From NCBI GenBank assembly GCA_017521605.1, contig JAFXCD010000046.1, positions 1-64,000 of the forward strand: 64,000 nt of DNA, read 5' to 3'. The stretch comes from Lachnospiraceae bacterium. Lineage in GTDB: Bacteria; Bacillota; Clostridia; Lachnospirales; Lachnospiraceae. The notes beneath the pieces are model-generated. The model was not told where the DNA came from and ran no database searches. It was given only the letters and a program-made list of their open reading frames with translations. Positions 2,406 through 22,069 of the stretch are shown in pieces (the stretch's first letter is position 1; the number at the start of each line of letters is the position of its first letter). Made by a program: the position numbers and the translations under genes.

Positions 2406-3820
2406 TTAATTTTTACCCTTGTTTTTTCCCTTATCAGAGGTCATAACCAAGGATAAAACGATATAACACGATACAAGATTTGATGGAGAGGACACCGCAA
2501 TCAAGTTGGGAATTACCATCAGTCCATTAAAGGTATCTGAAATGCTCCATACCAGTCCTAAATCTATGGTGGCACCTACAATAGCCATTAAGGAATACAC
2601 TACCATAAAAGGCTTTACTATCTTGGCTGAAAATATAAATTCCGCACAGCGGGCACCGTAAAGTCCCCATTCGATAATGGTGGAAAAAGCAAAACAGCAC
2701 ATAGCCACTGCCGTAAAAATAGATACCCAGTTGCCATAGGTGGAAGTAAATCCCAGAATGGTAAGCTCTGCACCTGCTACCTCGCCAAAGGTAATAGACA
2801 CACCACTACATAAAATAACTAATGCAGTCAGTGTACAAATAATGATGCTATCCGCAAACACCTCGAAAATACCGAAAAAGCCCTGCTTTACAGGTTCCTT
2901 GGTATCTGCACAGGCGTGGGCGATAGAGCCGGTACCTAAACCTGCTTCGTTGGAGAAAATACCTCTGGATACACCCTTTGTCATACTAAGGAAAAAGCTT
3001 CCTACCACACCACCGGTTACTGTTGCCGGGTTAATGCACCATAGAAAATAGAACCAAACACTGAAGGTACGTTCTTAATATTGAGTACTACAACACCGAT
3101 TGCCAATAAAATATATATAATCGCCATAAAAGGTACCAGTTTCTCAGTAACCTTTCCGATACGTTTAATACCACCCAATAACACACATGCCACCAGAATC
3201 ATAATAATAATACCGATAATCCAATTGCTAATGTTTACATTAGATTCTGAAATGACATTATAATTAAGCAATGCCGAATTAACTACTGCCGTAATGGTAT
3301 TCACCTGGGTTGCATTCCCGGTTCCAAATACCGTAAATACGCCGAATATTGCAAACAATACTGCCAGCCAATGCCACTTCTTTCCCAGACCATTCTTAAT
3401 ATAATACATGGGACCACCCACCAGTTCACCCTTTTCATTACGCTCTCTGCAATGCACAGCAAGGGTTACCTCACAGAACTTGGTACACATACCAAGCAAA
3501 GCTGAAATCCACATCCAAAATACAGCTCCGGGACCACCGATGGCAATGGCACCTGCCACGCCGGCAATATTACCCGTTCCCACCGTCGCAGAAAGGGCTG
3601 TTCACACTGCCTGGAAAGGGGTCATAGTTCCATCCTTAGCTTCCCTTTTTTCAAACATCTTTCCGATGGTATTCTTAATAGCCAAAGGGAACTTACGTAT
3701 CTGGATAAAACGGATACGGATACTTAAGTAAAGTCCCACACCAATGATACAGACCATGGCCGGCACACCCCATATAAAACCGTTCACCTTTGAATTAATT
3801 GCTTCGATGATTTCTAACAT
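2406..3820 (-). pseudogene. Alanine/glycine:cation symporter (AGCS family), broken by a stop and a frameshift
   Basis: Three consecutive pieces together give a full-length (about 470 aa) AGCS-family sodium/proton:amino-acid symporter with many membrane segments. Recognisable blocks are GVPAMVCIIGVGLYLSIR, VGTGNIAGVAGAIAIGGPGA, MYYIKNGLG and GIFSNEAGLGTGSIAHA. Lesion 1 is an in-frame TGA at 3602-3604, directly before TALSATVGTGNIAG, where the family usually has Cys or Ser. Lesion 2 is a one-base loss near 3028-3031 in a short C run, after FGSIFYGALT, which shifts the frame before TVTGGVVGSFF. Both ends are otherwise intact, so decay is recent. With two separate lesions it is very unlikely to be functional. 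Confidence 0.85.
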
Positions 3821-3840
3821 ACTTTTCTTCGTAACCTTTC

Positions 3841-4785
3841 TTATTTTACTTCCAAAATATTCTCTATAAATTCAATGGCTTGTTCTGTCATCTGTAAGCC
3901 TGCTTCTTCTTCAAAATAATGGTCGGCACCTTCTATCATAAGTAACCTTGCATTCGGATAGGTTTCCAACGCTTTGCCATAATAATAATCCATTTCCTCC
4001 AATTCTTCCTCCGTATGAACCGTTCCCTGGAAAATCAGCACTTCCCCCTGGTACTTCTCCATACTCTCAAAAATATCACATTCTCGAATGGTCTTTACAA
4101 ACTCCCTACTCACCGGCAAAGGGTATTCCATTACAAACGGTATTTCTGCTCCTTCCGGAAACAATTCCCTAAACTGGTCAGGAACAAAGAAAGATGGCTC
4201 TAACAATATCAAACCTTGAATATCCTGCCCTCTTTCTCCTGCCACACCGGCAGATACCAGACCACCAAAACTATGTCCCCATAGAAACAGCTTACTATTA
4301 TCAAGCTCGGGCCATTTAAGAGCCTCATCCAACACTATGTTTAAGTCCGACACATTAGAAGGCATGGTTCTGTCAAAAGCCGTACCATCACTAAAACTGG
4401 TAGTACCGATTCCTGTAAAATCAAAAATCACGGCTGCAATTCCCTTTTCATTCAATAGTTCTACATAATCCATCTGGTAAGCAAAATTTGCATCAAATCC
4501 GTTAGCCATAACCACTACCGGAAAAGGTCCTTCCCCTTGTGGCATATGTAATTGACCATAGATTTTCAGATTATCCCGATAAAGACGGAATTCTTTTACC
4601 GTATCCGAAATAGTAATTATTTCGTTTTCTTTTTGTTTTTCGCCTGCCTCTTCCATTGATTCAACGGTCTGCTTTTGTTCTTGAACCTGATTTTCTGCCT
4701 CTCCATCTTTCATAGCAGTGGAGCAAGCCGTCAAAAGCCCAATCATACACAGCATACCCAAAAACATTCGTATTCTTCTTTTCAT
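3841..4785 (-). CDS. Secreted lipoprotein of the alpha/beta hydrolase fold
   Basis: A 314-aa protein with a lipoprotein signal: MKRRIRM, a hydrophobic stretch and the lipobox LLTAC, so it should be anchored to the outer face of the membrane. After a charged linker (about residues 25-60) comes a hydrolase domain with FPVVVMANGFDANF (oxyanion region) and the nucleophile elbow GHSFGG; an Asp and the His of EGADHYFEE complete a plausible triad. The start at 4785 is chosen over an ATG at 4803 because GGAGG lies just upstream of it. It resembles dienelactone-hydrolase-like esterases; the substrate is unknown. It follows the broken symporter in opposite reading order, both on the minus strand. Confidence 0.85.
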   Translation of the reverse strand: MKRRIRMFLGMLCMIGLLTACSTAMKDGEAENQVQEQKQTVESMEEAGEKQKENEIITISDTVKEFRLYRDNLKIYGQLHMPQGEGPFPVVVMANGFDANFAYQMDYVELLNEKGIAAVIFDFTGIGTTSFSDGTAFDRTMPSNVSDLNIVLDEALKWPELDNSKLFLWGHSFGGLVSAGVAGERGQDIQGLILLEPSFFVPDQFRELFPEGAEIPFVMEYPLPVSREFVKTIRECDIFESMEKYQGEVLIFQGTVHTEEELEEMDYYYGKALETYPNARLLMIEGADHYFEEEAGLQMTEQAIEFIENILEVK

Positions 4786-11240: not shown

Positions 11241-13226
11241 ATGGCTAAAACAAAAGATGAACGAATCAGAAAATTTAAAAGAAAACGTATCTGGCCATCC
11301 ATATTGGGATTATTCTTTATTTCTACTTTCCTTACAATACTTATGGCATTAGTGATAGGATTCCTAATCAACAACGTCATGACGAATAAAACTTTAGAGG
11401 GACTTAGCAATCTGGAAGAAGTAGCTAAGATTATGGAACAGGCAGACTCTCCGGAAGAAATAACTGAAATTGAAGACCAATTATTACTATATATTGAATT
11501 CGACACAAATGTGGAAGATATTGCGCTATTAGATACTGACCAAAAACCTATCTGGTCCGGCAATAACCAATACCCTTCCAAGCTACTAGAGAATACTGTG
11601 ATTCTCGACAAAAACTTAAAAGTATTCATCCATAATAATCCGGACAATTCATTTACCATAAAAAATGATGAGATTGGCATTAATAAAGAGTTTTTCGAAG
11701 GCCTGAATTTCAAGGATTTTATCAATACAGACAGTTTTACCGATGCTTCAAGTATTGTCCTCGGACAGTTGAAGGTATGGTTGGAACGCCCCTCAAAACT
11801 AGGAAACATCTATGTCTTACAAAATGTTACACTCAACTTTAATGACATATTTTCCGTTGCAGTATGTGCCGCCTTGGTAGCAATCATTATTGCCATATTT
11901 GTGCTGTACTATCTGATTTCCTTCATCAGCTTAATTTGCAATATACGTAAGATTAACAAGATTATCTACACGGATATGATAACAGGCGGTCCCAATTGGA
12001 TCTACTTTGAGAAAAAAGGAAACTCCATACTCAAAAGGAACCGTCACGGTGGAAAAAATTATGCCGTAATTCACCTAAGAATGCGCAAATACAGAAGCTA
12101 TTGCACTTGCTTTGGGGTAAAGGATGGCGAAGCACTGATTGAAAAGTATTATGATATATTGAAGAAAAAAATTAAGCATAATGAGCTTATGGCACATCGC
12201 GAAAATGCTCATTTCGGTCTCTTTCTTACTTATGAAAACAGAGAACAGTTAGTGAATCGAATCAAAGAAATGGAAGTTGCATTAGATACAATTTCTCCCA
12301 ACATTAAATTATACTTTGGTGTAGGAATTTATCTGACCGAAAAGGGGGATAAAGATATTGAACAGCTTTACAATAATGCCTTACTGGCTTGCGATATGCC
12401 TGAAGACGAAGCAGAAAGCAAAATTGCCTTCTTTGATATTGAGATGAACAATCAGAGAATTTGGGAACGTAAGGTGGAGGATGATTTGGATCGTGCCTTA
12501 GCCAACAAGGAATTCCAGGTATATTTACAGCCTAAGATTCAAACCTCAAAAGAAACCCTGGCAGGAGCCGAAGCTCTGGTTCGTTGGATTCATCCTGAGG
12601 ATGGTTTCATTCCGCCCAATAAATTCATACCCATTTTGGAAAAAAACGGCTTTATTACTAAATTGGATGACTATATGCTGGAGGAAGTGGCTGCCTTACA
12701 GTCCCGTTGGATTGCAGAAGGTCGTAAAATTGTACCAATTTCCGTAAATGTTTCCAGGGCACATTTCACCAGAACGGATTTGGCTAAACATATCTGTGCC
12801 ATTGTAGATAAATATAATACGCCCCACGATGTCATTGAACTGGAGCTGACAGAAAGTGCATTCTTTGATGATAAAAATCTCCTTCTGAATACGGTTAAAC
12901 AGTTAAGACAAGCCGGCTTCAGCGTATCCATGGATGATTTCGGTGCAGGATATTCTTCACTGAATTCTCTGAAGGAACTACAGATAGATGTTCTGAAAAT
13001 TGATGCAGATTTTTTCCGCGGTGCAGATGAAAAAGAGCGGGGACTGCTTATTGTTTCTGAGGTCATAGACCTTGCTAAGAAGCTGGATATGAAGATTGTG
13101 GCGGAAGGTATTGAAAGCCGTGAGCAAGTGGATTTCTTAACTGAGCAACAATGTGATTTGATTCAAGGCTACTTCTTTGCAAAACCTATGCCCATACCTG
13201 AGTTTGTAGAAAAATATAAGGATTAA
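11241..13226 (+). CDS. Membrane-bound cyclic-di-GMP phosphodiesterase (EAL) with degenerate GGDEF domain
   Basis: A 661-aa protein: membrane helix about 18-42, an extracellular sensor region to about 195, a second helix about 205-232, a GGDEF-like domain (about 245-400) lacking the GG[D/E]EF loop, then an EAL domain (about 415-660). EAL catalytic positions are all present: EALVRW, NVSR, ELTES, DDFGAGYSS, LKID, AEGIE and QGYFFAKP. It should therefore hydrolyse c-di-GMP, with the GGDEF part serving only for regulation. The start follows GGAG at a normal distance. It is monocistronic, with a terminator directly downstream. The sensed signal is unknown. Confidence 0.92.
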   Translation: MAKTKDERIRKFKRKRIWPSILGLFFISTFLTILMALVIGFLINNVMTNKTLEGLSNLEEVAKIMEQADSPEEITEIEDQLLLYIEFDTNVEDIALLDTDQKPIWSGNNQYPSKLLENTVILDKNLKVFIHNNPDNSFTIKNDEIGINKEFFEGLNFKDFINTDSFTDASSIVLGQLKVWLERPSKLGNIYVLQNVTLNFNDIFSVAVCAALVAIIIAIFVLYYLISFISLICNIRKINKIIYTDMITGGPNWIYFEKKGNSILKRNRHGGKNYAVIHLRMRKYRSYCTCFGVKDGEALIEKYYDILKKKIKHNELMAHRENAHFGLFLTYENREQLVNRIKEMEVALDTISPNIKLYFGVGIYLTEKGDKDIEQLYNNALLACDMPEDEAESKIAFFDIEMNNQRIWERKVEDDLDRALANKEFQVYLQPKIQTSKETLAGAEALVRWIHPEDGFIPPNKFIPILEKNGFITKLDDYMLEEVAALQSRWIAEGRKIVPISVNVSRAHFTRTDLAKHICAIVDKYNTPHDVIELELTESAFFDDKNLLLNTVKQLRQAGFSVSMDDFGAGYSSLNSLKELQIDVLKIDADFFRGADEKERGLLIVSEVIDLAKKLDMKIVAEGIESREQVDFLTEQQCDLIQGYFFAKPMPIPEFVEKYKD

Positions 13227-13227
13227 T

Positions 13228-13268
13228 AAAAAGATGCGAGCTTCAAAATGAGGGGCCCGCATCTTTTT
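13228..13268. terminator. Bidirectional terminator
   Basis: An 11-base complementary pair, AAAAAGATGCG with CGCATCTTTTT, encloses a 19-base loop. T runs on both strands let it end the EAL gene (plus) and the convergent XRE gene (minus). Confidence 0.85.
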
Positions 13269-13275
13269 TATGTAA

Positions 13276-13524
13276 TTACGCAGATACTATCATTTTTGCA
13301 TCTGTCATCACCAAAACATCATCCACCTTTACGCCTAAAACAGCCGCTAATACCACTAAATTGTCAATAGTGGGCAATGCTGTTCCATGCTGCCACTTGT
13401 AGATGGCCTGTGGTGTACCAAAGCCAAATACATCCTGCAAATCTCTAACAGAAATGCCTGCCGCCTTTCGTAATCGATTGATGTTCTGGCCTGTTCGTAC
13501 CATATCTATAGTTGGAATAGCCAT
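13276..13524 (-). CDS. Small XRE-family helix-turn-helix protein
   Basis: An 82-aa single-domain regulator. The helix-turn-helix is GQNINRLRKAAGISVRDLQDVFG followed by TPQAIYKWQHGTALPTIDNL, the classical Cro/CI-like pattern. No other domain is present. AAGGAGG precedes the ATG. It follows rtcB by 37 bases on the same strand and is probably co-transcribed with it, making it a candidate regulator of that operon (inference). Confidence 0.88.
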   Translation of the reverse strand: MAIPTIDMVRTGQNINRLRKAAGISVRDLQDVFGFGTPQAIYKWQHGTALPTIDNLVVLAAVLGVKVDDVLVMTDAKMIVSA

Positions 13525-13561
13525 AATTTCCTCCTTCCCGGCATGTGGGCCGGGGGAGAAT

Positions 13562-14797
13562 TTATCTCATGCTCTTATCGAACTTCGCCGGCTCAGATGC
13601 CTTAAAATTATATATTGGTTTTAATACTTCAATCACTTCTACAGAGTCCTCAATTACATCCATGATGTCGCTCAAAGCCTTGTATGCCATGGGGGCCTCG
13701 TCCAAGGTATCCTCGTTTACGGAAGTGGTATAAATACCCTCCATCGCCTTCTTGTACTCCTCTAAAGATAAACTCTTACGAGCACCCGCTCTGGACATAA
13801 CCCTACCGGCACCATGGGGTGCGGAGTAGTTCCACTCCGGATTGCCCTTACCAACAGCCAGTACACTTCCATCCCTCATATTAATTGGAATCAGCACTTT
13901 CTCTCCTTTGTGGGCTGCAATCGCCCCTTTTCTTAAAATCATTTCATCTGTATCAATATAATTATGAATGGTATGAAATGCGTCCACTGCTGTAAGTTCG
14001 CATCTGCCTAAGATAACCTCTGCGATTAACTCACGGTTTCTCTTGGCAAACTGCTGGCAGATTTCCACGTCTGCCAAATAATCTTCAAAATACTTGCCGT
14101 AAAGGTAGCATAAATCCTCCGGCATGGAGGCTTCTTTTACTTCCTTTTGGTGTAAAAGCTCTTTTAACGCTGCCTGGATTTCACTTCTTCTACCCTGTTC
14201 CTTGTAGGTACGGATGATTTCTTCTCTCTGTTCAAAATAGTCCTCCATACCACAATGTAAGTCCACTGCAAGCTGCTGGTAAATTTCAGCTACCTGCTTG
14301 CCCAAATTACGGCTACCGGTGTGGATGACAAGGTATTTGGTACCGTCCTGCGCCTGGTCTACTTCAATAAAGTGATTACCGCCACCCAGAGTACCTAAGC
14401 TTCTCTCTAATCTCTTACTGTCCTTTAATGCCCTGAAGCAACGGAGCTTCTCTAAATCGAACCGTTCCTTTCGCCCCTCCCATACACGCATGCTCGAAGG
14501 TACGTAATGGCAGGCTTCATCCAACTTTTCAAAATCCAACTCCACATTACCAAGTTTCACTGTATACATACCGCAGCCGATATCCACACCTACAATATTG
14601 GGTACCGCTTTATCCACTACTGTCATGGTGGTACCGATGGTACAACCCTTACCCGCATGTACATCAGGCATGATTCTCACCTTGGAGCCTTCCGTAAATT
14701 CGTAATCGCACATTCTGCGAATCTGCTCTATGGCTTCCTCTTCAATGACCGTAGCATAGCAAATGGCTGTATTTACTTTTCCTTTGATCTCTAACAT
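13562..14797 (-). CDS. rtcB: RtcB family RNA-splicing ligase
   Basis: A 411-aa GTP-dependent RNA ligase that joins 2',3'-cyclic-phosphate (or 3'-phosphate) and 5'-OH ends, as left when tRNAs are cut by ribotoxins. Family motifs run in order: MPDVHAGKGCTIGTT, IVGVDIGCGMYT (metal-binding Cys), LGTLGGGNHFIE, HTGSRNLGKQV, HKGEKVLIPINMRDGS and SAPHGAGRVMSR, which holds the His that takes up GMP. The start at 14797 follows AAGGAG; a longer open frame upstream runs through a terminator and is rejected. That terminator's U run ends about 16 bases before the start, so rtcB expression must come from read-through of the small-protein unit at 14814-15133. Confidence 0.93.
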   Translation of the reverse strand: MLEIKGKVNTAICYATVIEEEAIEQIRRMCDYEFTEGSKVRIMPDVHAGKGCTIGTTMTVVDKAVPNIVGVDIGCGMYTVKLGNVELDFEKLDEACHYVPSSMRVWEGRKERFDLEKLRCFRALKDSKRLERSLGTLGGGNHFIEVDQAQDGTKYLVIHTGSRNLGKQVAEIYQQLAVDLHCGMEDYFEQREEIIRTYKEQGRRSEIQAALKELLHQKEVKEASMPEDLCYLYGKYFEDYLADVEICQQFAKRNRELIAEVILGRCELTAVDAFHTIHNYIDTDEMILRKGAIAAHKGEKVLIPINMRDGSVLAVGKGNPEWNYSAPHGAGRVMSRAGARKSLSLEEYKKAMEGIYTTSVNEDTLDEAPMAYKALSDIMDVIEDSVEVIEVLKPIYNFKASEPAKFDKSMR

Positions 14798-14813
14798 TTT
14801 GATTCTCCTTTCC

Positions 14814-14851
14814 AAAAAAACATACCGCCTACCCATCTCTAGGTAAGCGGT
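14814..14851 (-). terminator. Terminator or attenuator between small ORF copy 1 and rtcB
   Basis: On the minus strand ACCGCTTACC pairs with GGTAGGCGGT (14824-14851, one G-U pair), followed after two bases by seven T. It is nearly identical to the hairpin at 19103-19131. Because the U run directly abuts the rtcB ribosome site there is no space for a separate rtcB promoter, so this hairpin should act as an attenuator. Confidence 0.85.
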
Positions 14852-14882
14852 ACGCAAAATACATGTTCTTATTCCTGAAGTT

Positions 14883-15032
14883 TTACAACCTCAACGCTAT
14901 ATTACAAACACAATTTCCTCGTATTGACTTATCTATAGATGAGTGCATGAACTTCAAGCCCAGCTCGTGTTCATCGAGTTGTGCTTTCAGGCATTCACTA
15001 TACAGACTATATATACGATTCATTGCTGCCAT
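14883..15032 (-). CDS. Small protein, copy 1 (49 aa), upstream of rtcB
   Basis: Starts MAAMNRIYSLYSECL behind GGAAAGGAAAG and contains the block FMHSSIDK, then RGNCV. A second copy, 43 aa, lies at 19178-19309 with the same layout. Aligned codons differ mostly at third positions or by conservative changes (ELGLKF against EMGLCF) and one whole-codon indel, which argues that both are translated. There is no signal peptide or membrane segment. I know no family for it. It lies between its own promoter (15089-15133) and a terminator that precedes rtcB. Confidence 0.7.
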   Translation of the reverse strand: MAAMNRIYSLYSECLKAQLDEHELGLKFMHSSIDKSIRGNCVCNIALRL

Positions 15033-15088
15033 GTCTCTTTCCTTTCCGGAACGTACTACGTCCCCGCTTATTCTTACCTTACATCGTC

Positions 15089-15133
15089 ATAATAGCACAA
15101 AAACTTTAGCTTGTAAATTATACTTGTGGTATA
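15089..15133 (-). promoter_or_regulatory. Promoter with upstream inverted repeat, copy 1
   Basis: Minus strand: -35 TTTACA (15112-15117), 17-base spacer ending TGC, -10 TATTAT (15089-15094; extended -10). Just upstream of the -35 is TATACCACAAGTATA (15119-15133), with TATAC/GTATA arms. The same promoter and the same 15-base element, with two base changes, stand before copy 2 at 19361-19405, so both units probably answer to one regulator. Confidence 0.78.
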
Positions 15134-15138
15134 GAGTT

Positions 15139-15480
15139 TTACGTCCAGCTCTTCCATACCTCCGGTGCATATCCTACCGTAGCCTGCTTCCCATTCCTCA
15201 CAATAGGTGTCTTAATCACCTGCTGATTGGCCAGTAGCTTCTCTTCCTTCTGGTCATCGGAAATATACTTCACCAGCGCTAGGGCGTCCTTATCCTTACA
15301 GTCATCGTTAATCATGGCTTGGATTCCTCCTACCACCTGACATACACTGCGAAACTCGCCCTTGCTGATTTCCTTCTCATTCATATCGATAAATTGAAAC
15401 TTAATGCCCCGCTCTTTGAAATAACGCTGGGCTTTCTTGGTGTCGTTGCACTTCTTCGTACCGAAAATTTGGATATTCAA
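15139..15480 (-). CDS. ArsC/Spx-like thioredoxin-fold protein
   Basis: A 113-aa protein of the ArsC family: IFGTKKCNDTKKAQRYF carries the single N-terminal Cys, and IKTPIVRNGKQATVGY is the conserved cis-Pro region. The single Cys in a CxxT context is like YffB/Spx rather than a proven arsenate reductase, and no ars genes adjoin it. The start codon is TTG at 15478-15480 behind AAGGAG. It is the last gene of the five-gene operon from 18403 and ends just before the promoter of the small-protein unit. Confidence 0.85.
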   Translation of the reverse strand: MNIQIFGTKKCNDTKKAQRYFKERGIKFQFIDMNEKEISKGEFRSVCQVVGGIQAMINDDCKDKDALALVKYISDDQKEEKLLANQQVIKTPIVRNGKQATVGYAPEVWKSWT

Positions 15481-15497
15481 TGTTCTACTCCTTGTTG

Positions 15498-16523
15498 CTA
15501 TTCTTTCTCGCCTTCGTTTGCTTCTTCCATTTCAAGCTGCTTTTCGCCGGTGCCCTCTTCAAACCGCACTCTTAGTACCGCCTGGGGCCAATTGACAGAA
15601 ATGTAAGCTCGCTTATTCTTTGCCCTAGCTTCTTCATCAAATACTTCCAGAAGCCCTGACAAAACCTCTTTGGTCAGATATCCGCCTCTCCAATGGAACA
15701 GAAGCACCTTCCCCTTCTTCACCGCCTGCTTGGTACGGTTTCGCACCTCATCCATGGTGGTCCATGAGACTTTCTTCTCCTTGTAATAAAAATGGTCGTT
15801 ATCACTGCAAACAGGCACCTTCCAGATCACCGGCTCATGGTCTCTGAAAATCTGCTTATCCGACAAATTCACATAGTCATATCTCACCGTATCATCTTTT
15901 GAAAGAGTGTTGTCAAAGGTGGCATCCAAATGATAATACTGCCCATCGATACGAATTACATTCCAGGCATGCCTGTATTTGATGCCCTTGTCCGGATTGG
16001 CTTCCGACAAGGCGATAATACACCAGATATTCAGCTCATCGCAAAGAATCTTCACTGCCTTAGCCATACCCTCACAGACCGCCACACCGTTCCCTAGTGC
16101 ACCGATGATTTCATGGGAATACTCTTTCTTCAGCTTATCATACTTTACATTCTGCACGATGAAATCATGGATAAAAAGCTCTTTCCCCTTTTCATCCAAA
16201 TCCGCCGCCTGACGAGCCAGCTTCTTCACCCTGGCTGCAATAGCCTGACGATGTTCCCTGATTTTATCCTTTGAAAAAAGATATTGGGGTATCATCTCCA
16301 CTGCTGTGGAATCCGGATAATACCGATAGGCAAAAGTTACCGAGTAAAAGATGGCAGGACAATCCATGCGAATCATAAAATAGATGTCTGCCAACTCTTT
16401 CCCCGAAAGCTTAGGCACCGCAAAGGAATCCTGAAGATTTAACAAACCTTCCTTCATGGCATAGTAGACTCTCTGCTGCGCTTTATTCAATTGGTCATAA
16501 TAATAATTGCCTGCCTTCGCCAT
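15498..16523 (-). CDS. Transglutaminase-like cysteine protease domain protein
   Basis: A 341-aa cytosolic protein (no signal peptide). The transglutaminase core carries the three catalytic positions: Cys in GVAVCEGMAKAV, His in KYRHAWNVI and Asp in YYHLDATFDNTL. The N-terminal 100 residues are helical, and the C-terminal tail (after about 325) is very acidic. The start at 16523 is chosen because GGAAG precedes it, while an upstream TTG overlaps the previous stop. It follows the deformylase-like gene in the same operon. Transglutaminase-core proteins of this type are often peptidases or peptide-bond-forming enzymes; the target is unknown. Confidence 0.85.
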   Translation of the reverse strand: MAKAGNYYYDQLNKAQQRVYYAMKEGLLNLQDSFAVPKLSGKELADIYFMIRMDCPAIFYSVTFAYRYYPDSTAVEMIPQYLFSKDKIREHRQAIAARVKKLARQAADLDEKGKELFIHDFIVQNVKYDKLKKEYSHEIIGALGNGVAVCEGMAKAVKILCDELNIWCIIALSEANPDKGIKYRHAWNVIRIDGQYYHLDATFDNTLSKDDTVRYDYVNLSDKQIFRDHEPVIWKVPVCSDNDHFYYKEKKVSWTTMDEVRNRTKQAVKKGKVLLFHWRGGYLTKEVLSGLLEVFDEEARAKNKRAYISVNWPQAVLRVRFEEGTGEKQLEMEEANEGEKE

Positions 16524-16540
16524 CTCGAAGCTTCCTTTCG

Positions 16541-16951
16541 TCAAATCACGATGCCTGCCACATGATCCAGCTCGTGTTGAATAATCTGAGCCGTCCAGCC
16601 TGTATACTTTCCGTGCTGGGGCTTGAAATTCCGGTCCAGATAATCCACCTCTATCTCCTTATATCTGGTGCAAGGTCGCACGCCCTCCAACGACAGACAA
16701 CCTTCCTCTGTCTTGAATGCATCTTTTTTCTTTGTAATCTTCGCATTGATCATGGCAAGCATAAACGGTCCTACCGCCACCACGATAATATTCTTTTTTA
16801 TACCGATCATGTTCGCAGCCATGCCAACACACCTGTCCTGATTGGCCTGCAATGTATCCAAAAGATCCTGAACCACCTGCTTGTCCGCTTCTGTTGCAGG
16901 TTCGGATTTTTGTGATAAGAATAGCGGGTCGCGAATAATTGGTTTTATCAT
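16541..16951 (-). CDS. def: Peptide deformylase-like protein
   Basis: A 136-aa zinc hydrolase of the deformylase family, which removes the formyl group from N-terminal Met. Two of the three family motifs are intact: EGCLS (metal Cys) and QHELDH (metal His and catalytic Glu). Motif 1 is GMAANMIG, missing the usual Gln of GxGLAAxQ, and the protein is somewhat shorter than typical enzymes. It is therefore a divergent, second-type deformylase. Its ATG overlaps the stop of the MazG-like gene by 4 bases (ATGA), showing tight coupling in the operon. Confidence 0.88.
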   Translation of the reverse strand: MIKPIIRDPLFLSQKSEPATEADKQVVQDLLDTLQANQDRCVGMAANMIGIKKNIIVVAVGPFMLAMINAKITKKKDAFKTEEGCLSLEGVRPCTRYKEIEVDYLDRNFKPQHGKYTGWTAQIIQHELDHVAGIVI

Positions 16952-17289
16952 TGGGGGCCTCCTTTGCTTGTTTCAGAAGAAACTTCCTTCAAAAGTATTC
17001 TCTTATCAAAAGCTCCACGTTTCTCAGCCTTCTCTATGCGGACAGCTTCTAATTCTTCTCGAGAATACCCTCTTGCCTTTGCAGCCGCCAGAAGCACTTC
17101 CATAAGATCTGCAAGTTCTTCAACATTCTGGTCCTTGTGGTACTCTGCAAGTTCCTCATCCAACTTAGCATCCAGCATATCTAAATATCTTTCCTCCGAA
17201 AGAGTTTCCACGATACAATTTTTACCGGAAGCTTCTATTATCTCCGGAATTTTATCTCTTACAAGTTTATTATAGGTGATTACACTCAT
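16948..17289 (-). CDS. MazG-like nucleotide pyrophosphohydrolase
   Basis: A 113-aa all-helical protein starting MSVITYNKLVRDKIPEII. The acidic pattern LDEELAEYH, then VEELADLMEVLLAAAK, is the metal-binding EExxE...ExxD arrangement of all-alpha NTP pyrophosphatases, which hydrolyse (d)NTPs to monophosphates. The start at 17289 is preferred over 17331 because AAGGAG lies 10 bases upstream and the overlap with the HNH gene is smaller (20 bases). It is the second gene of the operon and overlaps the next gene by 4 bases. Confidence 0.87.
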   Translation of the reverse strand: MSVITYNKLVRDKIPEIIEASGKNCIVETLSEERYLDMLDAKLDEELAEYHKDQNVEELADLMEVLLAAAKARGYSREELEAVRIEKAEKRGAFDKRILLKEVSSETSKGGPQ

Positions 17290-18403
17290 GGTATGTCCAC
17301 TCCTTAAATCCCTGATTTTTAGCTGAATCATAGACCGGCTTTATAACATTGGCCAGACGTTGTCTAAAAGCCTCTTTTTCCAGTCCTTCTTCATATAGGC
17401 TGTTTCGTATTTCCTGATTATTTAAATGATATGGTGCGATTCGGTCAAAAGCTTTCGCCACAGCCTCTTCTTTAGCTTTTAACTCGTACGCTCTATATTC
17501 TAACTCGCTAAGGGATACAAAATAAACATCCCATGCCGGAAGACAATTGCTTTTGCTACTATTGATGGAACGTATGGTAGGATGTAAGTTCCAAAGTTCA
17601 TCATGAGCAACATACTGCCATGGCACAAAATGGTCCACGGAAATACTCTTCTCAGCCAGCGTAATCTCTCCATAGATATCCTTAAGCGAAGGATCCAAAT
17701 CAATAATCAGTCGCCAGTACCTTCTCACACGTTCAATATCTCTTGCAGCAGGCGCCTCTATCTTATCTGCAATACCCGGTACACTGGGATTCTTATTCTG
17801 TAGATACTGAATCAATTTCAACTGCGTCCAGCCCTTTAAAATTTCCTTATGCTTGGTTAAATAATCCACCCAGATACTATCGACTTCAATCCTTGAACCA
17901 AGCCCCGAAATCTGAGTAAAATAATACATCAATCTGCGTTGACTGTTAATCACATTAGTGAGTTCTATCTTTGACCCATGCCATAATTGTTTTCCGATTG
18001 TAATTTCATCATAAAAAGGTACCTGCAATCTATACGGCACATTTAAAGTAAGGTCTGATTTGTATTTGGCAATCTGCTTATCCTCTGTACTATTTAAAAA
18101 AGCCAGAATATCTTCTCGCTCCTGCGAAGAACGAAAAGGATAGTTCTCATAAATATAATTCACTACCTCTTCCAAATTGTCAGTAATCCCTAATGGTCCT
18201 AAATGCAAATGATACTCTGTCACCATATACCAAGCATCCGCAATCATTTCATTTATCAGTTCATCAAACGTAAAACTGTTATGTATGCCATCTACTTTGC
18301 GAAGAACTGCCTGAAACCAGAAAAACTTATAGCAATTCGAGGTGTTATCAAACAGCCTGCTTAAATAACCAATATTCAGTTTATCTGAATAAGGAAGTGA
18401 CAT
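17270..18403 (-). CDS. HNH endonuclease domain protein
   Basis: A 377-aa soluble protein. The HNH-like module lies at about residues 265-300: SVDHFVPWQYVAHDELWNL followed by RSINSSKSNCLP, giving the His, the central Asn and the closing Asn/His region. The long N-terminal part (1-260) is helical and unrecognised, so the protein is likely a specialised nuclease rather than a homing enzyme. The ATG follows AAGGAG. It is the first gene of the operon HNH-mazG-def-transglutaminase-arsC and has its own promoter at 18501-18529, immediately downstream of the tRNA array terminator. Confidence 0.8.
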   Translation of the reverse strand: MSLPYSDKLNIGYLSRLFDNTSNCYKFFWFQAVLRKVDGIHNSFTFDELINEMIADAWYMVTEYHLHLGPLGITDNLEEVVNYIYENYPFRSSQEREDILAFLNSTEDKQIAKYKSDLTLNVPYRLQVPFYDEITIGKQLWHGSKIELTNVINSQRRLMYYFTQISGLGSRIEVDSIWVDYLTKHKEILKGWTQLKLIQYLQNKNPSVPGIADKIEAPAARDIERVRRYWRLIIDLDPSLKDIYGEITLAEKSISVDHFVPWQYVAHDELWNLHPTIRSINSSKSNCLPAWDVYFVSLSELEYRAYELKAKEEAVAKAFDRIAPYHLNNQEIRNSLYEEGLEKEAFRQRLANVIKPVYDSAKNQGFKEWTYHECNHL

Positions 18404-18465
18404 GAAGTACTCCTTTCCGCGAAATCATTTTTTATGCAAATCACACTTAATTGAGAAAATGCAAA

Positions 18466-18529
18466 ACACATTCTTATCACAAATGTGTATATTTATTCAA
18501 ATTATACCTATATATTATTGCAAAATCAA
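18466..18529 (-). promoter_or_regulatory. Promoter and candidate operator of the HNH operon
   Basis: Minus strand: -35 TTGATT (18524-18529), 17-base spacer, -10 TATAAT (18501-18506). Downstream, in the leader, ACACATT and AATGTGT (18466-18488) form an inverted repeat with a 9-base spacer, a possible operator. Confidence 0.7.
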
Positions 18530-18546
18530 TAGAAAGGTCAATGCAT

Positions 18547-18577
18547 AAAGGCCCACCTTTAATAAAAGCAGGCCTTT
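18547..18577 (-). terminator. Terminator of the tRNA array
   Basis: AAAGGCC and GGCCTTT (7-bp arms) enclose an internal CTTT/AAAG stem. It stands about 15 bases past the last tRNA, and the stem's own TTT ends the hairpin on the minus strand. Confidence 0.65.
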
Positions 18578-18591
18578 CAACATGAATATAG

Positions 18592-18679
18592 CGTTTGCGG
18601 AGGGATTCGAACCCCCGGTGCGAATATACGCACATCACCTTAGCAGGGTGACACCTTAAACCATCTCGGTCACACAAAC
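18592..18679 (-). tRNA. tRNA-Ser (anticodon GCT)
   Basis: An 88-nt cloverleaf. The acceptor GTTTGTG pairs with CGCAAAC (one G-U); the discriminator is G, as usual for Ser. The anticodon stem-loop is TCACC-CTGCTAA-GGTGA. A long variable arm (GTGCG/CGCAC) and a normal TTCGAAT T-loop follow. The D-stem is only 3 bp, typical of Ser, but position 10 is A rather than G. CCA is not encoded. It is the last tRNA of the array. Confidence 0.9.
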
Positions 18680-18683
18680 AAAG

Positions 18684-18767
18684 TGGGCAGGATTGGACTT
18701 GAACCAACAGAACCCGAAGGCACCAGATTTACAGTCTGGCCCGCTACCAATTACGGTTTACCTACCC
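18684..18767 (-). tRNA. tRNA-Tyr (anticodon GTA)
   Basis: An 84-nt cloverleaf with long variable arm, as in bacterial tRNA-Tyr. The acceptor GGGTAGG pairs with CCTGCCC; the anticodon arm is CCAGA-CTGTAAA-TCTGG. The T-loop is TTCAAGT. The D-arm (CCG/CGG) is weak and somewhat irregular. CCA is not encoded. Confidence 0.9.
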
Positions 18768-18771
18768 TTAG

Positions 18772-18844
18772 TGACCCCTATGGGACTTGAACCCAATACC
18801 CCAGCCTTGAAAGGGCTGTGTCCTAACCTTTAGACTAAGGGGCC
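18772..18844 (-). tRNA. tRNA-Glu (anticodon TTC)
   Basis: A 73-nt cloverleaf. The acceptor GGCCCCT pairs with AGGGGTC; the anticodon arm is CAGCC-CTTTCAA-GGCTG. The D-arm TAGTCTAAAGGTTAGGACA is normal and the T-loop is TTCAAGT. CCA is not encoded. It lies 8 bases after the tRNA-Ser(TGA). Confidence 0.93.
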
Positions 18845-18852
18845 TTATATAA

Positions 18853-18968
18853 CGCAGAGCCAGAGATTCGAACCCTGATACCCTTTCGGGATGTCGGTTT
18901 TCAAGACCGATGCCTCCTCTACAATTGAACATTCGCAGTTCAATTGTCATGAATTGAGCCAACTCTGC
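18853..18968 (-). tRNA. tRNA-Ser (anticodon TGA) with a hairpin inserted in the D-loop
   Basis: Acceptor GCAGAGT/GCTCTGC, G discriminator, anticodon arm TCGGT-CTTGAAA-ACCGA, variable arm CCC-GAAA-GGG and T-arm CAGGG-TTCGAAT-CTCTG are all normal for tRNA-Ser. The gene is 116 nt instead of about 89. The extra 27 nt lie in the D-loop and form a perfect 10-bp hairpin, ACAATTGAAC/GTTCAATTGT, with a 7-base loop (18921-18947). The remaining D-loop lacks the usual GG that docks with the T-loop. It is the first tRNA of the array. Whether it is charged and used in translation is open. Confidence 0.75.
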
Positions 18969-18970
18969 AA

Positions 18971-19087
18971 AATAAGCAGACTCGAAAAGCTTCGCTTTCC
19001 TCGTTCGTGTTGCTCGTCAAATCCCTGTACTGCCAGCCGCTCATGCAAGCATGTCGGCTGACATACAGGCACTTGACTCTGCTTATT
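18971..19087 (-). ncRNA. Structured RNA element between small-protein copy 2 and the tRNA array
   Basis: A perfect 10-bp closing stem, AATAAGCAGA/TCTGCTTATT (18971-18980 with 19078-19087), encloses two hairpins. The long one pairs GTCAA/TTGAC, CCTGTA/TACAGG and CAGCCG/CGGCTG (19016-19077), with CATGC/GCATG at its tip. The second is GAAAGC/GCTTTTC with a GAA loop. This is a three-way junction of about 117 nt ending 2 bases before the tRNA-Ser acceptor. No ORF fits. It may be a processed RNA co-transcribed with the array. No known family is recognised. Confidence 0.6.
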
Positions 19088-19090
19088 CAC

Positions 19091-19131
19091 GCAAAATAAA
19101 ACACCGCCTACCCATCATCAAGGTAAGCGGT
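19091..19131 (-). terminator. Terminator after small ORF copy 2
   Basis: ACCGCTTACC pairs with GGTAGGCGGT (19103-19131), followed by GTTTTATTTT on the minus strand. Near-identical to 14824-14851. Read-through would enter the structured RNA and the tRNA array. Confidence 0.8.
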
Positions 19132-19177
19132 ACGCGTAAACATGTTTATGATACCGTTAGCAACTGAATACCGTATC

Positions 19178-19309
19178 TCAAACACAATTTCCTCGTTTTT
19201 GCTTATCTATAGATGAGTGCATGAAACATAAACCCATCTCGGATTCTTCGAGATATGCTGACTGATAACTTTCTCTATAGATGTAATACAAACGATTCAT
19301 TGTAGTCAT
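19178..19309 (-). CDS. Small protein, copy 2 (43 aa), upstream of the tRNA array
   Basis: Starts MTTMNRLYYIYRESY behind GGAAAGGAAAAG and shares MNR-Y--Y-E, E-GL-FMHSSIDK and RGNCV with copy 1 at 14883-15032; it stops right after RGNCV, six residues earlier than copy 1. Conservation is strongest over FMHSSIDK--RGNCV, where even the bases are almost unchanged, so that segment may also have an RNA role. No membrane segment. Unknown family. Confidence 0.7.
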   Translation of the reverse strand: MTTMNRLYYIYRESYQSAYLEESEMGLCFMHSSIDKQKRGNCV

Positions 19310-19360
19310 GTCTTTTCCTTTCCCGGCACTTTTCGTTCCGCTTATCTTGATTACATTGTC

Positions 19361-19405
19361 ATCATAGCATGAGATACGACGCTTGTAAATTATACGCGTG
19401 GTATA
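19361..19405 (-). promoter_or_regulatory. Promoter with upstream inverted repeat, copy 2
   Basis: Minus strand: -35 TTTACA (19384-19389), 17-base spacer ending TGC, -10 TATGAT (19361-19366). TATACCACGCGTATA (19391-19405) stands directly upstream of the -35, in the same place as the matching element of copy 1. Confidence 0.78.
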
Positions 19406-19430
19406 AAATGAATGGGAAGCATATCACTTC

Positions 19431-19541
19431 TTATTTTACTCTGCAATACACTTCTCTACTTTGTACAGGAGATATCTCCAGCAACTCCTTTACTCTTTCA
19501 AAGCGAAGCTTTGCCAAAATCATTCCCTGTTCCTTATCCAT
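19431..19541 (-). CDS. Small 36-aa protein upstream of copy 2
   Basis: MDKEQGMILAKLRFERVKE begins behind a very strong GGGGGAGG site. The sequence is one charged helix, LAKLRFERVKELLE, then a short tail. The helix recalls the first helix of HEPN-type proteins (AKxRLERAKE), but 36 residues is too short for that fold, so it could be a remnant or an independent micro-protein. It lies 26 bases ahead of the copy-2 upstream element on the same strand. Confidence 0.5.
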   Translation of the reverse strand: MDKEQGMILAKLRFERVKELLEISPVQSREVYCRVK

Positions 19542-19693
19542 ACAAAACCTCCCCCTCCATAGCAATACTTCTAAAGTACAAATATGCTGAGACAATTGAG
19601 GCGAAGTTAATCATGTGTTAAAATGTGATAACCCCAAGGAAGTATACGTGACTCTCAACAAGGTTGTTATTATCGGTAACTTCCCCTAAAGGC
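19542..19693. other. Intergenic stretch without a recognisable gene
   Basis: No ORF with a credible start. An open plus-strand run ending KVVIIGNFP before a TAA at about 19688 looks like the tail of a lost coding sequence, but it has no start and no context. Confidence 0.4.
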
Positions 19694-19740
19694 AAAAAAA
19701 GGAAACCAGGATGAGGAGACATTCCCCTATCCTGATTCCT
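19694..19740 (-). terminator. Rho-independent terminator
   Basis: AGGAAxCAGGAT pairs with ATCCTGxTTTCCT (19700-19740) and is followed by seven T on the minus strand. It ends the gene at 19794-20417. Confidence 0.85.
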
Positions 19741-19793
19741 ATTATAATCATTATACATCTTTAAATACTGAATCAAATAAAGTATATGAATAT

Positions 19794-20417
19794 TTAATCC
19801 TTAAGTCTATAACTTACATCTGACATGGTGGTCTTACCACTCTCGCCGGTGTTAAACCTAATCGTAATCTGCCATATTTCATCTTCGTACACAAGAGAAT
19901 CACCTGATTCTTTTGCTGGTTCACCGTATGCTTTCTTAACTTCTTCAAGCGTACTCTTCCATGTAATACCCTGAGGCAACACAACCTTATTAGCGGTAAA
20001 TGTTCCCATAGAAAGATGTTCAATAAACACATCATCAAGTGCCTGCTCTTCCTCATAAGGATTAATTAATACCACACTAATAATCTTTTGCTTATCATTT
20101 GAATTATGAACATTCATACTATTGGTAACTGTATTAGCCGGGAATTTCTCATATTTCATATTTAAGGTTTCCTCAATCAACCATCCACTCTCAGCCATAT
20201 CTGCTACAGTTACCGGCAACTGGTATACCTTTCCATCAAGATAGAAGCCACCGTCCATAATACCGTCTCCCATTTGTCCTACTGCTTCTTCTATCTCTTC
20301 TTCAGAGGCATGAAGGGTTGATTTATTCCCTTTCTTCATAAGACTGAAAACGTTTAAGGCAATTATCACAATAAATATTAGTACAAAAATTCCTACAATC
20401 TTTAAAAATTTTTTCAT
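19794..20417 (-). CDS. Membrane-anchored protein of unknown function
   Basis: A 207-aa protein with one N-terminal membrane helix (about residues 5-26, no lipobox or clear cleavage site) and an extracellular domain. The C-terminal part (ITWKSTLEEVKKAYGEPA, YEDEIWQITIRFNTGES) resembles the BLIP/SmpA-like pattern in which a short helix is followed by GxP and strands, as found in many Firmicute surface proteins. No catalytic motif. It is monocistronic, with a strong terminator. Confidence 0.75.
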   Translation of the reverse strand: MKKFLKIVGIFVLIFIVIIALNVFSLMKKGNKSTLHASEEEIEEAVGQMGDGIMDGGFYLDGKVYQLPVTVADMAESGWLIEETLNMKYEKFPANTVTNSMNVHNSNDKQKIISVVLINPYEEEQALDDVFIEHLSMGTFTANKVVLPQGITWKSTLEEVKKAYGEPAKESGDSLVYEDEIWQITIRFNTGESGKTTMSDVSYRLKD

Positions 20418-20461
20418 CTTTCATGTACCTCGCATTATACCTTGTTATATCATTCTGTATA

Positions 20462-22069
20462 TTAATTCAAACTCTTCATCGTAGGGAAGAATAATACGTC
20501 CCTAATCGCCTGTGAATCGGTCAGTAGCATACACAATCTATCCAATCCGTAGCCGATACCGCCTGTAGGAGGCATACCGATTTCCAAAGCGTTCATGAAG
20601 TCTTCGTCGGTGGTGTTGGCTTCGTCATCGCCTGCTGCCAACGCTGCTTCCTGTGCCTTGAAACGTTCTCTCTGGTCGATTGGATCGTTTAATTCGGAGT
20701 ATGCGTTACACATTTCCCATCCGTTGATAAAGAGCTCGAAACGCTCTACATAGTCCGGCTTGTCCGGCTTTCTCTTGGTGAGAGGAGAAATCTCTACGGG
20801 ATGGTCCATGATGAAGGTAGGCTGAATCAGATGCTCTTCTACGAACTCTTCGAAGAACAGGTTCAGGATATCTCCCTTTTCATGACGTGCTTCGTATTCT
20901 ACATGCTTTTCATCTGCAATTTTCTTTGCTGCTGCAGTATCAGGGATTTCATCAAAATCCACGCCTGCGTACTTCTTTACAGCTTCAATCATGGTAAGTC
21001 TTTCAAAAGGCTTACCGAAGTCGATGGTATGAGGGCCGTACTGAATCACGGTAGTACCGCAAACCTCCTGTGCCACATACTTAAACATGCTCTCGGTGAG
21101 CTCCATCATACCGTAATAATCGGTATATGCCTGATAAAGTTCCATCAGGGTAAACTCAGGATTGTGTCTGGTGTCCACACCTTCGTTACGAAATACTCTA
21201 CCGATTTCGTATACTCGCTCCAAGCCGCCTACGATTAATCTCTTTAAGTAAAGTTCCAGGGAAATACGAAGCTTTACATCCTCGTCTAATGCATTGAAGT
21301 GGGTTTCAAAAGGTCTTGCTGCTGCACCACCTGCATTTGCCACAAGCATAGGTGTCTCCACTTCCATAAAGTTACGTCCGTCTAAGAAATTACGGATGCT
21401 CTTCATCATCTTAGAACGCTTGATAAAGGTATCCTTCACTTCCTCGTTCATAATCAGATCCACATATCTCTGACGATAACGGGTATCGGTATCGGTCAGA
21501 CCGTGGAACTTCTCAGGCAAGATCTGTAAGCTCTTGCTGAGCATGATCATCTCCACTGCATGTACGGAAATTTCACCGGTCTTGGTACGGAATACATAGC
21601 CCTTGATACCATAAATATCACCAATATCTGACTTCTTGAAGTCTGCGTATGCATCTTCTCCGATAGCGTCTCTAGCCACATATACCTGGATTCTGCCTTC
21701 CAAGTCCTGAATATTGCAAAAAGATGCCTTACCCATAACACGCTTAAACATCATACGTCCTGCAATGGATACGTTGATGGGACTTGCGTCCATGATTGCT
21801 CTTCTTTCGTTATAATCTGCATTCACTGCTTCTCTTGCTGCAGCCTCGTCCAAACCTTCCACATTCACAGCCGCTCTGCCTGCCAGAAGCTGCGCCTCAT
21901 GAGCCTCATACTGTGCTCTCGCTTGCGCAGTATGATGAGTCACATCATACTTAGTAATCTGAAACGGATCCTTGTCTGCTGCCTGTAAATTCGCCAGCTT
22001 CTCTCTTCTTACCTTTAATAACTGATTTATATCCTGTTCCTGTACATTGTTGTTCTGTACTTCTGCCAT
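20462..22069 (-). CDS. lysS: Lysine--tRNA ligase, class II
   Basis: A 535-aa cytosolic aminoacyl-tRNA synthetase that charges tRNA-Lys. An OB-fold anticodon-binding domain (about 60-185, MFKRVMGKASFCNIQDLEGRIQ) precedes the class II core. Motif 2 is FRNEGVDTRHNPEFT, and motif 3 is GGIGYGLDRLCML with LFFPTMK. An insertion QEAALAAGDDEANTTDEDF is usual for bacterial LysRS. The start at 22069 follows AGGAG; a GTG three codons earlier lies within the site. It is downstream of greA, an arrangement common in Firmicutes. The last bases are near a promoter-less junction with the 207-aa gene. Confidence 0.97.
   Translation of the reverse strand: MAEVQNNNVQEQDINQLLKVRREKLANLQAADKDPFQITKYDVTHHTAQARAQYEAHEAQLLAGRAAVNVEGLDEAAAREAVNADYNERRAIMDASPINVSIAGRMMFKRVMGKASFCNIQDLEGRIQVYVARDAIGEDAYADFKKSDIGDIYGIKGYVFRTKTGEISVHAVEMIMLSKSLQILPEKFHGLTDTDTRYRQRYVDLIMNEEVKDTFIKRSKMMKSIRNFLDGRNFMEVETPMLVANAGGAAARPFETHFNALDEDVKLRISLELYLKRLIVGGLERVYEIGRVFRNEGVDTRHNPEFTLMELYQAYTDYYGMMELTESMFKYVAQEVCGTTVIQYGPHTIDFGKPFERLTMIEAVKKYAGVDFDEIPDTAAAKKIADEKHVEYEARHEKGDILNLFFEEFVEEHLIQPTFIMDHPVEISPLTKRKPDKPDYVERFELFINGWEMCNAYSELNDPIDQRERFKAQEAALAAGDDEANTTDEDFMNALEIGMPPTGGIGYGLDRLCMLLTDSQAIRDVLFFPTMKSLN

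Follow-up and report, generated by a model that had tools for sequence, protein, structure and literature searches.

Leader-peptide attenuators are known for the trp, his, and ilv operons, and the T-box of Firmicutes is a tRNA-sensing terminator/antiterminator that binds transfer RNA (tRNA) directly. Leader peptides in Firmicutes also precede hisS and hisZ, as described in the available part of the source (PMC2965389). The RtcR-controlled rsr-yrlBA-rtcBA operon is induced by damaged tRNAs, and 5' tRNA fragments bind its CARF-domain sigma54 activator, according to the accessible text (PMC7790460). In Anabaena, the trn operon and rtcB are under one regulator, TrcR, and are induced by translational stress; the TrcR regulon lists HNH endonuclease genes in the part of the paper that was available (PMC10272220). 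Here, we describe a stretch of 64,000 nucleotides (nt) of a Lachnospiraceae bacterium (the window; assembly GCA_017521605.1, contig JAFXCD010000046.1, positions 1 to 64,000), in which two copies of a short leader unit precede the RNA ligase gene rtcB and an array of tRNA genes, respectively. Judged from the sequence, each copy is, with a probability of about 0.8, a leader-peptide transcription attenuator with self-matching sensor codons. No leader-peptide attenuator before rtcB or tRNA genes was found described in the open literature, as covered by titles and the beginnings of abstracts, with subscription papers mostly outside and priority unsettled.

Codons of the leader and tRNAs of the operon

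The original prediction had proposed a duplicated unit of promoter, small paralogous protein, and terminator. The duplication was borne out, with both copies on the minus strand and aligned in register (blocks of 103 nt at 77%, 59 nt at 73%, 25 nt at 92%, 25 nt at 88%, and 18 nt at 94% identity), and the open reading frames (ORFs) of 49 and 43 amino acids (aa) were 62% identical. As had been stated, copy 1 is followed by the RNA ligase gene rtcB and copy 2 by a structured RNA (here a hairpin) and the tRNA array; a small XRE-type gene also lies downstream of copy 1. The reading of the unit as a cassette for a small protein was not supported, and the evidence favors an attenuator with a codon-reading peptide. 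For the analysis, the two copies were combined with 45 units from 58 fetched regions of the same family; the 13 other regions (L123, L130, L132, L133, and L136-L144, which were weak profile or pattern matches) were dropped for having no rtcB or XRE match. The 47 units are a selected set, and the least selected figure is the 21 of 22 non-own profile places given below.

The codons of the leader were compared with the tRNAs of the operon in the 21 units that had at least two tRNAs called by ARAGORN (the other 26 had fewer and were outside the test), and tRNA sets were exchanged between loci in 20,000 swaps. At codons 2-28, 186 of 567 codons were read by tRNAs of the own operon, compared with 131.6 ± 7.7 after swapping (p ≤ 5e-5). 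This excess held under leader identities of 70, 50, and 40% (15, 12, and 10 loci, respectively; each p ≤ 5e-5), with 112 own matches versus 75.9 ± 7.2 swapped in the 10 loci under 40%. It was located at codons 8-16 (83/189 vs. 57.5) and 17-25 (84/189 vs. 56.1), which are referred to below as the sensor codons. No codon-level excess was detected at codons 2-7 (6/126 vs. 5.8) or 26-29 (15/84 vs. 14.7), and codons 30-45 (71/324 vs. 63.4, p 0.06) were not significant.

Gln codons averaged 4.67 in operons with Gln(TTG) (n = 3) and 0.33 in those without (n = 18), and operons with Ser(TGA), Cys, His, and Arg(ACG) were enriched in the same manner (n of 3-6). The corresponding means, all from small n, were 2.5 versus 0.59 for TCN codons with and without a Ser(TGA) tRNA, 1.67 versus 0.28 for Cys, and 1.5 versus 0.4 for His. 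Gly, Val, Thr, Met, and Pro together made up under 3% of the 378 sensor codons. Comparison within synonymous boxes was mixed: TCN accounted for 10 of 17 Ser codons with Ser(TGA) and 10 of 42 without, and no difference was observed for Ser AGY (17/27 vs. 22/32) or Leu CTN (15/21 vs. 37/51). L044, with tRNAs Phe, Ile, Ser, Lys, Cys, Gln, and Gln, has a sensor window rich in F, S, C, and Q, and that of L125, with tRNAs Tyr, Cys, Gln, Gln, and Ser, is CYSYQYEQQLVQEYEQS. Against codon use in 47 ORFs of the analyzed stretch as the binomial background, 12 of the 18 sensor codons of copy 2 were Tyr, Glu, or Ser (p 1e-5; 2/24 in the rest of the ORF), as were 7 of 18 in copy 1 (p 0.035; 3/30 elsewhere in the ORF). 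Codons for the regulated tRNAs are thus concentrated in the ORF as in an attenuator, with the exception of L194.

Five held-out loci were obtained from the order search after the codon test had been fixed. An XRE match was located downstream in all five, at only 39% identity in L194. Three of the four loci with at least two tRNAs fitted their own set above the average of the other leaders (0.67 vs. 0.54, 0.78 vs. 0.56, and 0.67 vs. 0.44), the best other leader reaching 0.83, 0.72, and 0.72. The sensor peptide is identical in L193, L194, and L195, and therefore these loci are not independent.

Predicted RNA pairing within the leader

A putative ORF with a ribosome-binding site was recognized between the promoter and the controlled genes in the 47 units (a Shine-Dalgarno-like sequence helped to choose most ORF starts), and a terminator hairpin precedes the first controlled gene in all of them. 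In the proposed scheme, region 1 would be the 5' half of the ORF with the sensor codons, region 2 its 3' half, and regions 3:4 the terminator. In pairing swaps that included all 47 units, with relatives not thinned, region 2 paired with the terminator 5' arm and loop (2:3) more strongly in its own combination than when swapped (mean -19.74 vs. -16.44 kcal/mol, z -7.8), and the same applied to the two halves of the ORF (1:2; -28.31 vs. -22.49 kcal/mol, z -10.5). The conserved FMHSSIDK/RGNCV stretch coincides for the most part with the RNA segment for which terminator pairing is predicted.

Alignment A5 comprised all units except L009 and L048 (45 of 47). Its outer antiterminator helix was paired in 79.1% of cells, compared with 74.0 when shuffled and 29-62% in slid versions; for partners slid by -1 and +1, the values were 40 and 43%. 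The covariation score of the antiterminator was 0.235 versus 0.175 shuffled (1/500). The terminator was paired in 96.8% of cells, and its covariation was above all shuffles. In transcripts truncated after region 3, with only the RNA 3' of a ribosome stalled at codon 16 left to fold, antiterminator pairing was above 0.5 in 37 of 47 units, compared with 8 of 47 when the whole leader was free. With the ribosome at the stop codon, the terminator formed in all 47 foldings. Mutually exclusive antiterminator and pre-emptor pairings are therefore predicted by the folding model, at an equilibrium that favors the terminator in 39 of the 47.

An earlier candidate for the antiterminator, pairing of a GCGG segment in the 5' part of the leader with the terminator arm, gave p 0.051 on swapping and was replaced by 2:3. 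A T-box riboswitch was rejected, as no covariance-model match was obtained with E up to 1 in positions 13000-20500, and no other cis-regulatory Rfam family matched the leader. Besides tRNAs and Clostridiales-1, the Rfam output contained a plastid 3' untranslated region family on the strand opposite the tRNA-Ser, which was taken as chance.

Recurrence in relatives and features of the window

When named genome contigs were searched with both peptides, 44 pattern matches were obtained, and the eight confirmed ones all come from Lachnospiraceae or [Clostridium] aminophilum. The profile search for homologues that the original prediction had suggested was performed with ten peptides and matched 23 of 397 genomes sampled from Lachnospiraceae; 21 of the 22 non-own places adjoin rtcB, XRE, or tRNA genes. 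Twenty of these places were refetched, each with rtcB, XRE, or tRNA just downstream, one is on the L005 contig, and the last is L033, where neither rtcB, XRE, nor tRNA was found. The copy 2 peptide alone matched 2 of the 117 nearest relatives, the window genome included. A wider profile with a permissive threshold (E up to 0.05) matched 66 of 397 genomes, many of them weakly. In a sample of the order, six of the 275 genomes were matched (E up to 0.001), and these all belong to Lachnospiraceae. Pattern scans with TATAYYRYNNRTATAATNNACA had the wrong spacing for most units and were not used as a census.

Within 3.3 kb downstream of the 47 units (the stretch was shorter in five), rtcB was located in 29, XRE in 39, and either of the two in 45. 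At least one intact tRNA was present in 30, and rtcB, XRE, or tRNA in all 47. A frequent gene order was leader, tRNAs, rtcB, XRE, and further tRNAs. The commonest operon tRNAs by units were Glu(TTC) (16), Tyr (14), Lys(TTT) (14), Ser(GCT) (8), Glu(CTC) (7), and His (6), and the largest operons contained up to eight tRNA genes (L006 and L037). Shared control of the RNA ligase and tRNA genes, as proposed earlier, is supported by this recurrence before tRNA/rtcB/XRE operons and by the operator pattern, which is exact only twice in the genome. At one end of L044 (contig of G243, oriented 40-2149), tRNA-XRE-tRNA genes truncated by the contig end are immediately succeeded by a leader unit that carries tRNAs and an XRE gene of its own, and tandem units may thus exist elsewhere. 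L041 (oriented 3516-4625) carries a second, diverged rtcB (40% identical) after the first rtcB and XRE.

The operator TATACCAC(AA/GC)GTATAAT is present in both copies (Table 1), and the exact pattern TATACYNCNNRTATAAT matched only these two sites in the 3.8-Mb assembly; with one mismatch, 11 extra matches were obtained, with no excess over the control. The TTTACA/extended -10 promoter that had been claimed was found in both copies. A similar operator-like site lies 5' of 41 of the 47 units; the site was partly used in selecting the units. Both operators resemble the Anabaena TrcR motif ATACTACACTTGTATTAC as given in the accessible text (PMC10272220).

Table 1. Positions of the leader units and of the genes and RNAs downstream of them in the window.
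Feature	Position	Strand	Basis or remark
Copy 1 operator-like palindrome TATACCACAAGTATAAT	15117..15133	-	Immediately 5' of -35; exact genome match
Copy 1 promoter, TTTACA-17 nt-TATTAT, TG before -10	15089..15117	-	Sequence and alignment A3
Copy 1 putative leader ORF, 49 aa	14883..15032	-	Sensor codons 8-25 at 14958-15011
Copy 1 region 2, antiterminator 5' strand, ORF 3' half	14912..14944	-	Predicted duplex with terminator 5' arm, -19.0 kcal/mol
Copy 1 terminator hairpin (regions 3:4) and T-tract	14814..14855	-	Hairpin 14855-14820; terminator covariation
rtcB, predicted RNA ligase, 411 aa	13562..14797	-	Pfam PF01139, E 5.7e-58; motifs aligned with solved relative 2epg
Small XRE/Cro-type helix-turn-helix (HTH) protein, 82 aa	13276..13524	-	Pfam HTH_3
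Copy 2 operator-like palindrome TATACCACGCGTATAAT	19389..19405	-	Exact genome match
Copy 2 promoter, TTTACA-17 nt-TATGAT, TG before -10	19361..19389	-	Sequence
Copy 2 putative leader ORF, 43 aa	19178..19309	-	Sensor codons 8-25 at 19235-19288
Copy 2 region 2, antiterminator 5' strand	19191..19219	-	Predicted duplex with terminator 5' arm, -16.4 kcal/mol
Copy 2 terminator hairpin (regions 3:4), then T-rich tail	19101..19133	-	Sequence
Palindromic hairpin between copy 2 terminator and first tRNA	18973..19085	-	Sub-threshold Rfam RF01699 match
Ser(TGA)-like tRNA, hairpin insert in D-loop	18853..18968	-	By eye; aligned with the other Ser(TGA) tRNA of the genome
tRNA-Glu(TTC)	18771..18844	-	ARAGORN and Rfam search
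tRNA-Tyr(GTA)	18683..18767	-	Further Tyr(GTA) tRNA elsewhere in genome
tRNA-Ser(GCT)	18591..18679	-	Further Ser(GCT) tRNA elsewhere in genome

The copy 1 terminator stops just 5' of the ribosome-binding site of rtcB. The predicted RtcB contains the GVDIGCG, GGGNHF, HTGSRNLG, and HGAGR motifs, which assign it to the RtcB family. Its best PF01139 stretch covers profile positions 138-425 of 426, and its scores fall under the NCBIfam cut-offs of the RtcB models. The XRE/Cro-type protein is a candidate regulator that may bind the operator. Among the ten window proteins scanned with Pfam, the neighbors were XRE, ArsC, transglutaminase, deformylase, HNH, EAL/GGDEF, and two without a match; no RtcA or RtcR as in an RtcR-controlled rtcBA operon was found among them. 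The HNH endonuclease gene (17270-18403) is on the same strand, just 3' of the tRNA array.

The tRNAs were called by ARAGORN and RNA families by an Rfam search. The array holds Glu(TTC), Tyr(GTA), and Ser(GCT), which corrects the original prediction, together with a fourth, Ser(TGA)-like tRNA for which ARAGORN gave no call; the order in the copy 2 array is Ser-Glu-Tyr-Ser. The "structured RNA" upstream of the array is a long palindromic hairpin, and its match to Rfam Clostridiales-1 is below threshold (33 bits vs. a cut-off of 48). The genome holds other Tyr, Ser(GCT), and Ser(TGA) tRNAs with quite different sequences and the same anticodon loops. Glu(TTC) is absent from its 36 other tRNA matches, one of which is partial at a contig end in an incomplete assembly.

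A palindromic element of approximately 55 nt (CGGTCGKCRCA-N8-GTCCACYGGAC and variants) was observed inside operon tRNAs of L005, L010, L036, L038, L048, and L131. By eye, it is positioned mostly in the T-loop, also in the anticodon loop in L131, and in the anticodon arm in L038. Seven of the eight matches of its core fall in the 145 kb downstream of leaders (394 kb in total). One to three copies also occur outside tRNAs in 10 of 11 genomes (up to one mismatch), and the window genome has a copy near a tRNA-Gly on contig 88 (L169). The element is probably mobile and tolerated in dispensable tRNAs. That it is an intron joined by RtcB is only remotely conceivable, since its presence outside tRNAs in the same genomes makes an ordinary mobile element likelier.

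Interpretation and comparison with known systems

The units would act as attenuators of the trp/his type with the alternative pairings 1:2, 2:3, and 3:4. If tRNAs were plentiful, the ribosome would reach the end of the ORF and cover region 2, and the terminator would halt transcription; if the leader were untranslated, 1:2 and 3:4 would form and transcription would halt too. If a sensed tRNA were missing, the ribosome would stall on region 1, 2:3 would pair, and transcription would run into the extra tRNAs and rtcB. As the sensor codons correspond to tRNAs encoded in the same operon, the operon would detect the loss of tRNAs that it can replace and, via RtcB, re-ligate. The palindrome 5' of the -35 element may provide a second control at the DNA level, perhaps via the linked XRE protein. 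Translation of the leader, stalling of the ribosome, cleavage of tRNA as the trigger, and the role of XRE are what we infer. The earlier suggestion of a tRNA stress response is strengthened by the codon match, although it is not proven. Based on the output genes, the natural trigger is probably tRNA loss or cleavage (e.g., by anticodon nucleases), and not starvation. With somewhat more reserve, we favor a self-referential alarm for tRNA loss, in which a programmable leader would list the operon's tRNAs codon by codon, cleavage of any of them (e.g., by the anticodon nuclease of a rival or phage) would induce replacement and ligase, and leader and tRNA set would be rewritten together as the operon gains or loses tRNAs.

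Several results weigh against this reading. Downstream of the 47 units, rtcB was missing from 18 and an intact tRNA from 17 (five of the stretches being under 3.3 kb), and the downstream stretches of the five held-out loci contained no rtcB, which in L196 lies just upstream. The L194 leader did not match nearby tRNAs (0.11 vs. 0.14 for other leaders), and the sets of L193 and L196 were better fitted by at least one foreign leader than by their own. Within the window, no tRNA lies under the control of copy 1, whose sensor enrichment is weak, and the array copy of Glu(TTC) may not be spare. Single-tRNA tests were not significant for Tyr (p 0.19) and Lys (p 0.056), sensor windows contain Ala (7.7%), Asn, and Asp codons for which no matching tRNA was seen in the 21 operons, and at the amino-acid level codons 26-29 show a small excess (25/84 vs. 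18.3, p 0.034). Antiterminator pairs changed on both sides were not above shuffles (182/500), and partners slid by -1 and +1 had more such changes (24 and 18 vs. 15 cells). In the full-length RNA at equilibrium with a codon-16 stall, the terminator prevails in 39 of the 47 units and the antiterminator is above 0.5 in six; antitermination must therefore be kinetic.

The ORF could alternatively encode a functional small protein (a toxin, an antitoxin, or a partner of RtcB) made together with rtcB and the tRNAs, as its ribosome-binding site and the N-terminus M.TMNR and C-terminal motifs kept among close relatives would suggest. However, residues 8-25 vary with the tRNA set of the operon, the part that is conserved, the 3' half, is predicted to form a duplex with the terminator and sits in another frame in L045, and the copy 2 peptide has no Pfam match; such a protein is thus highly improbable. 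No more weight can be given to the codon match as a by-product of the common ancestry of leader and tRNA set. Related loci have both in common and the swap statistics are not tree-aware, yet the effect remains under 40% leader identity, and at the codon level it is confined to codons 8-25 though the ORFs share ancestry along their length.

The same attenuator might respond in nature to uncharged tRNA from amino-acid starvation instead of tRNA loss or cleavage. Classical attenuators sense tRNA charging, and a ribosome on the leader cannot distinguish a missing tRNA from an uncharged one. On the other hand, the output consists of tRNA genes and an RNA ligase, with no biosynthesis or transport, and up to eight tRNA genes per operon would be of little help to a starved cell, which renders starvation an unlikely signal. 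A general sensor of slowed translation, erm-like, triggered by antibiotics, and without codon specificity, is considerably less likely still. Although the available text on Anabaena reports that certain antibiotics acting on the ribosome induce the extra tRNA operon as well as rtcB (PMC10272220), the sensor codons here fit the tRNAs of their own operon above those of others.

If the attenuator reading is true, these units would provide a route to RtcB induction in bacteria without RtcR and a purpose for extra tRNA arrays. They would represent a natural family of multi-tRNA sensors with specificity readable from sequence, and the codon list of each operon would predict the tRNAs lost in nature. 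The RtcR system likewise ties an RtcB operon to tRNA damage, which is here the presumed trigger; it differs in that the signal here would be codons read by the ribosome and that the tRNA genes are within the operon. The Anabaena TrcR regulon similarly places an extra tRNA operon and rtcB under one control. According to the part of that paper available, its regulator belongs to the ribbon-helix-helix repressors and acts at the -10 element or close to it, whereas the operator here lies 5' of the -35 element and the linked regulator is XRE-type; the Anabaena tRNA operon is on a megaplasmid, apart from the chromosomal rtcB, and the word "leader" is not mentioned in the same portion of the text (PMC10272220). 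In contrast to the T-box, sensing here would pass through a translated ORF. The units resemble the trp, his, and ilv attenuators in having a short ORF enriched in key codons, predicted pairings that rule each other out, and an intrinsic terminator before the controlled genes. They differ in that they would control tRNAs, an RNA ligase, and an HTH gene, that many codon types are combined, and that the sensor codons track the tRNA content of the operon. Leader-peptide attenuation, which is known for amino-acid genes, thus appears to extend here to tRNA genes and an RNA ligase, with a leader that reads the tRNAs made by the operon.

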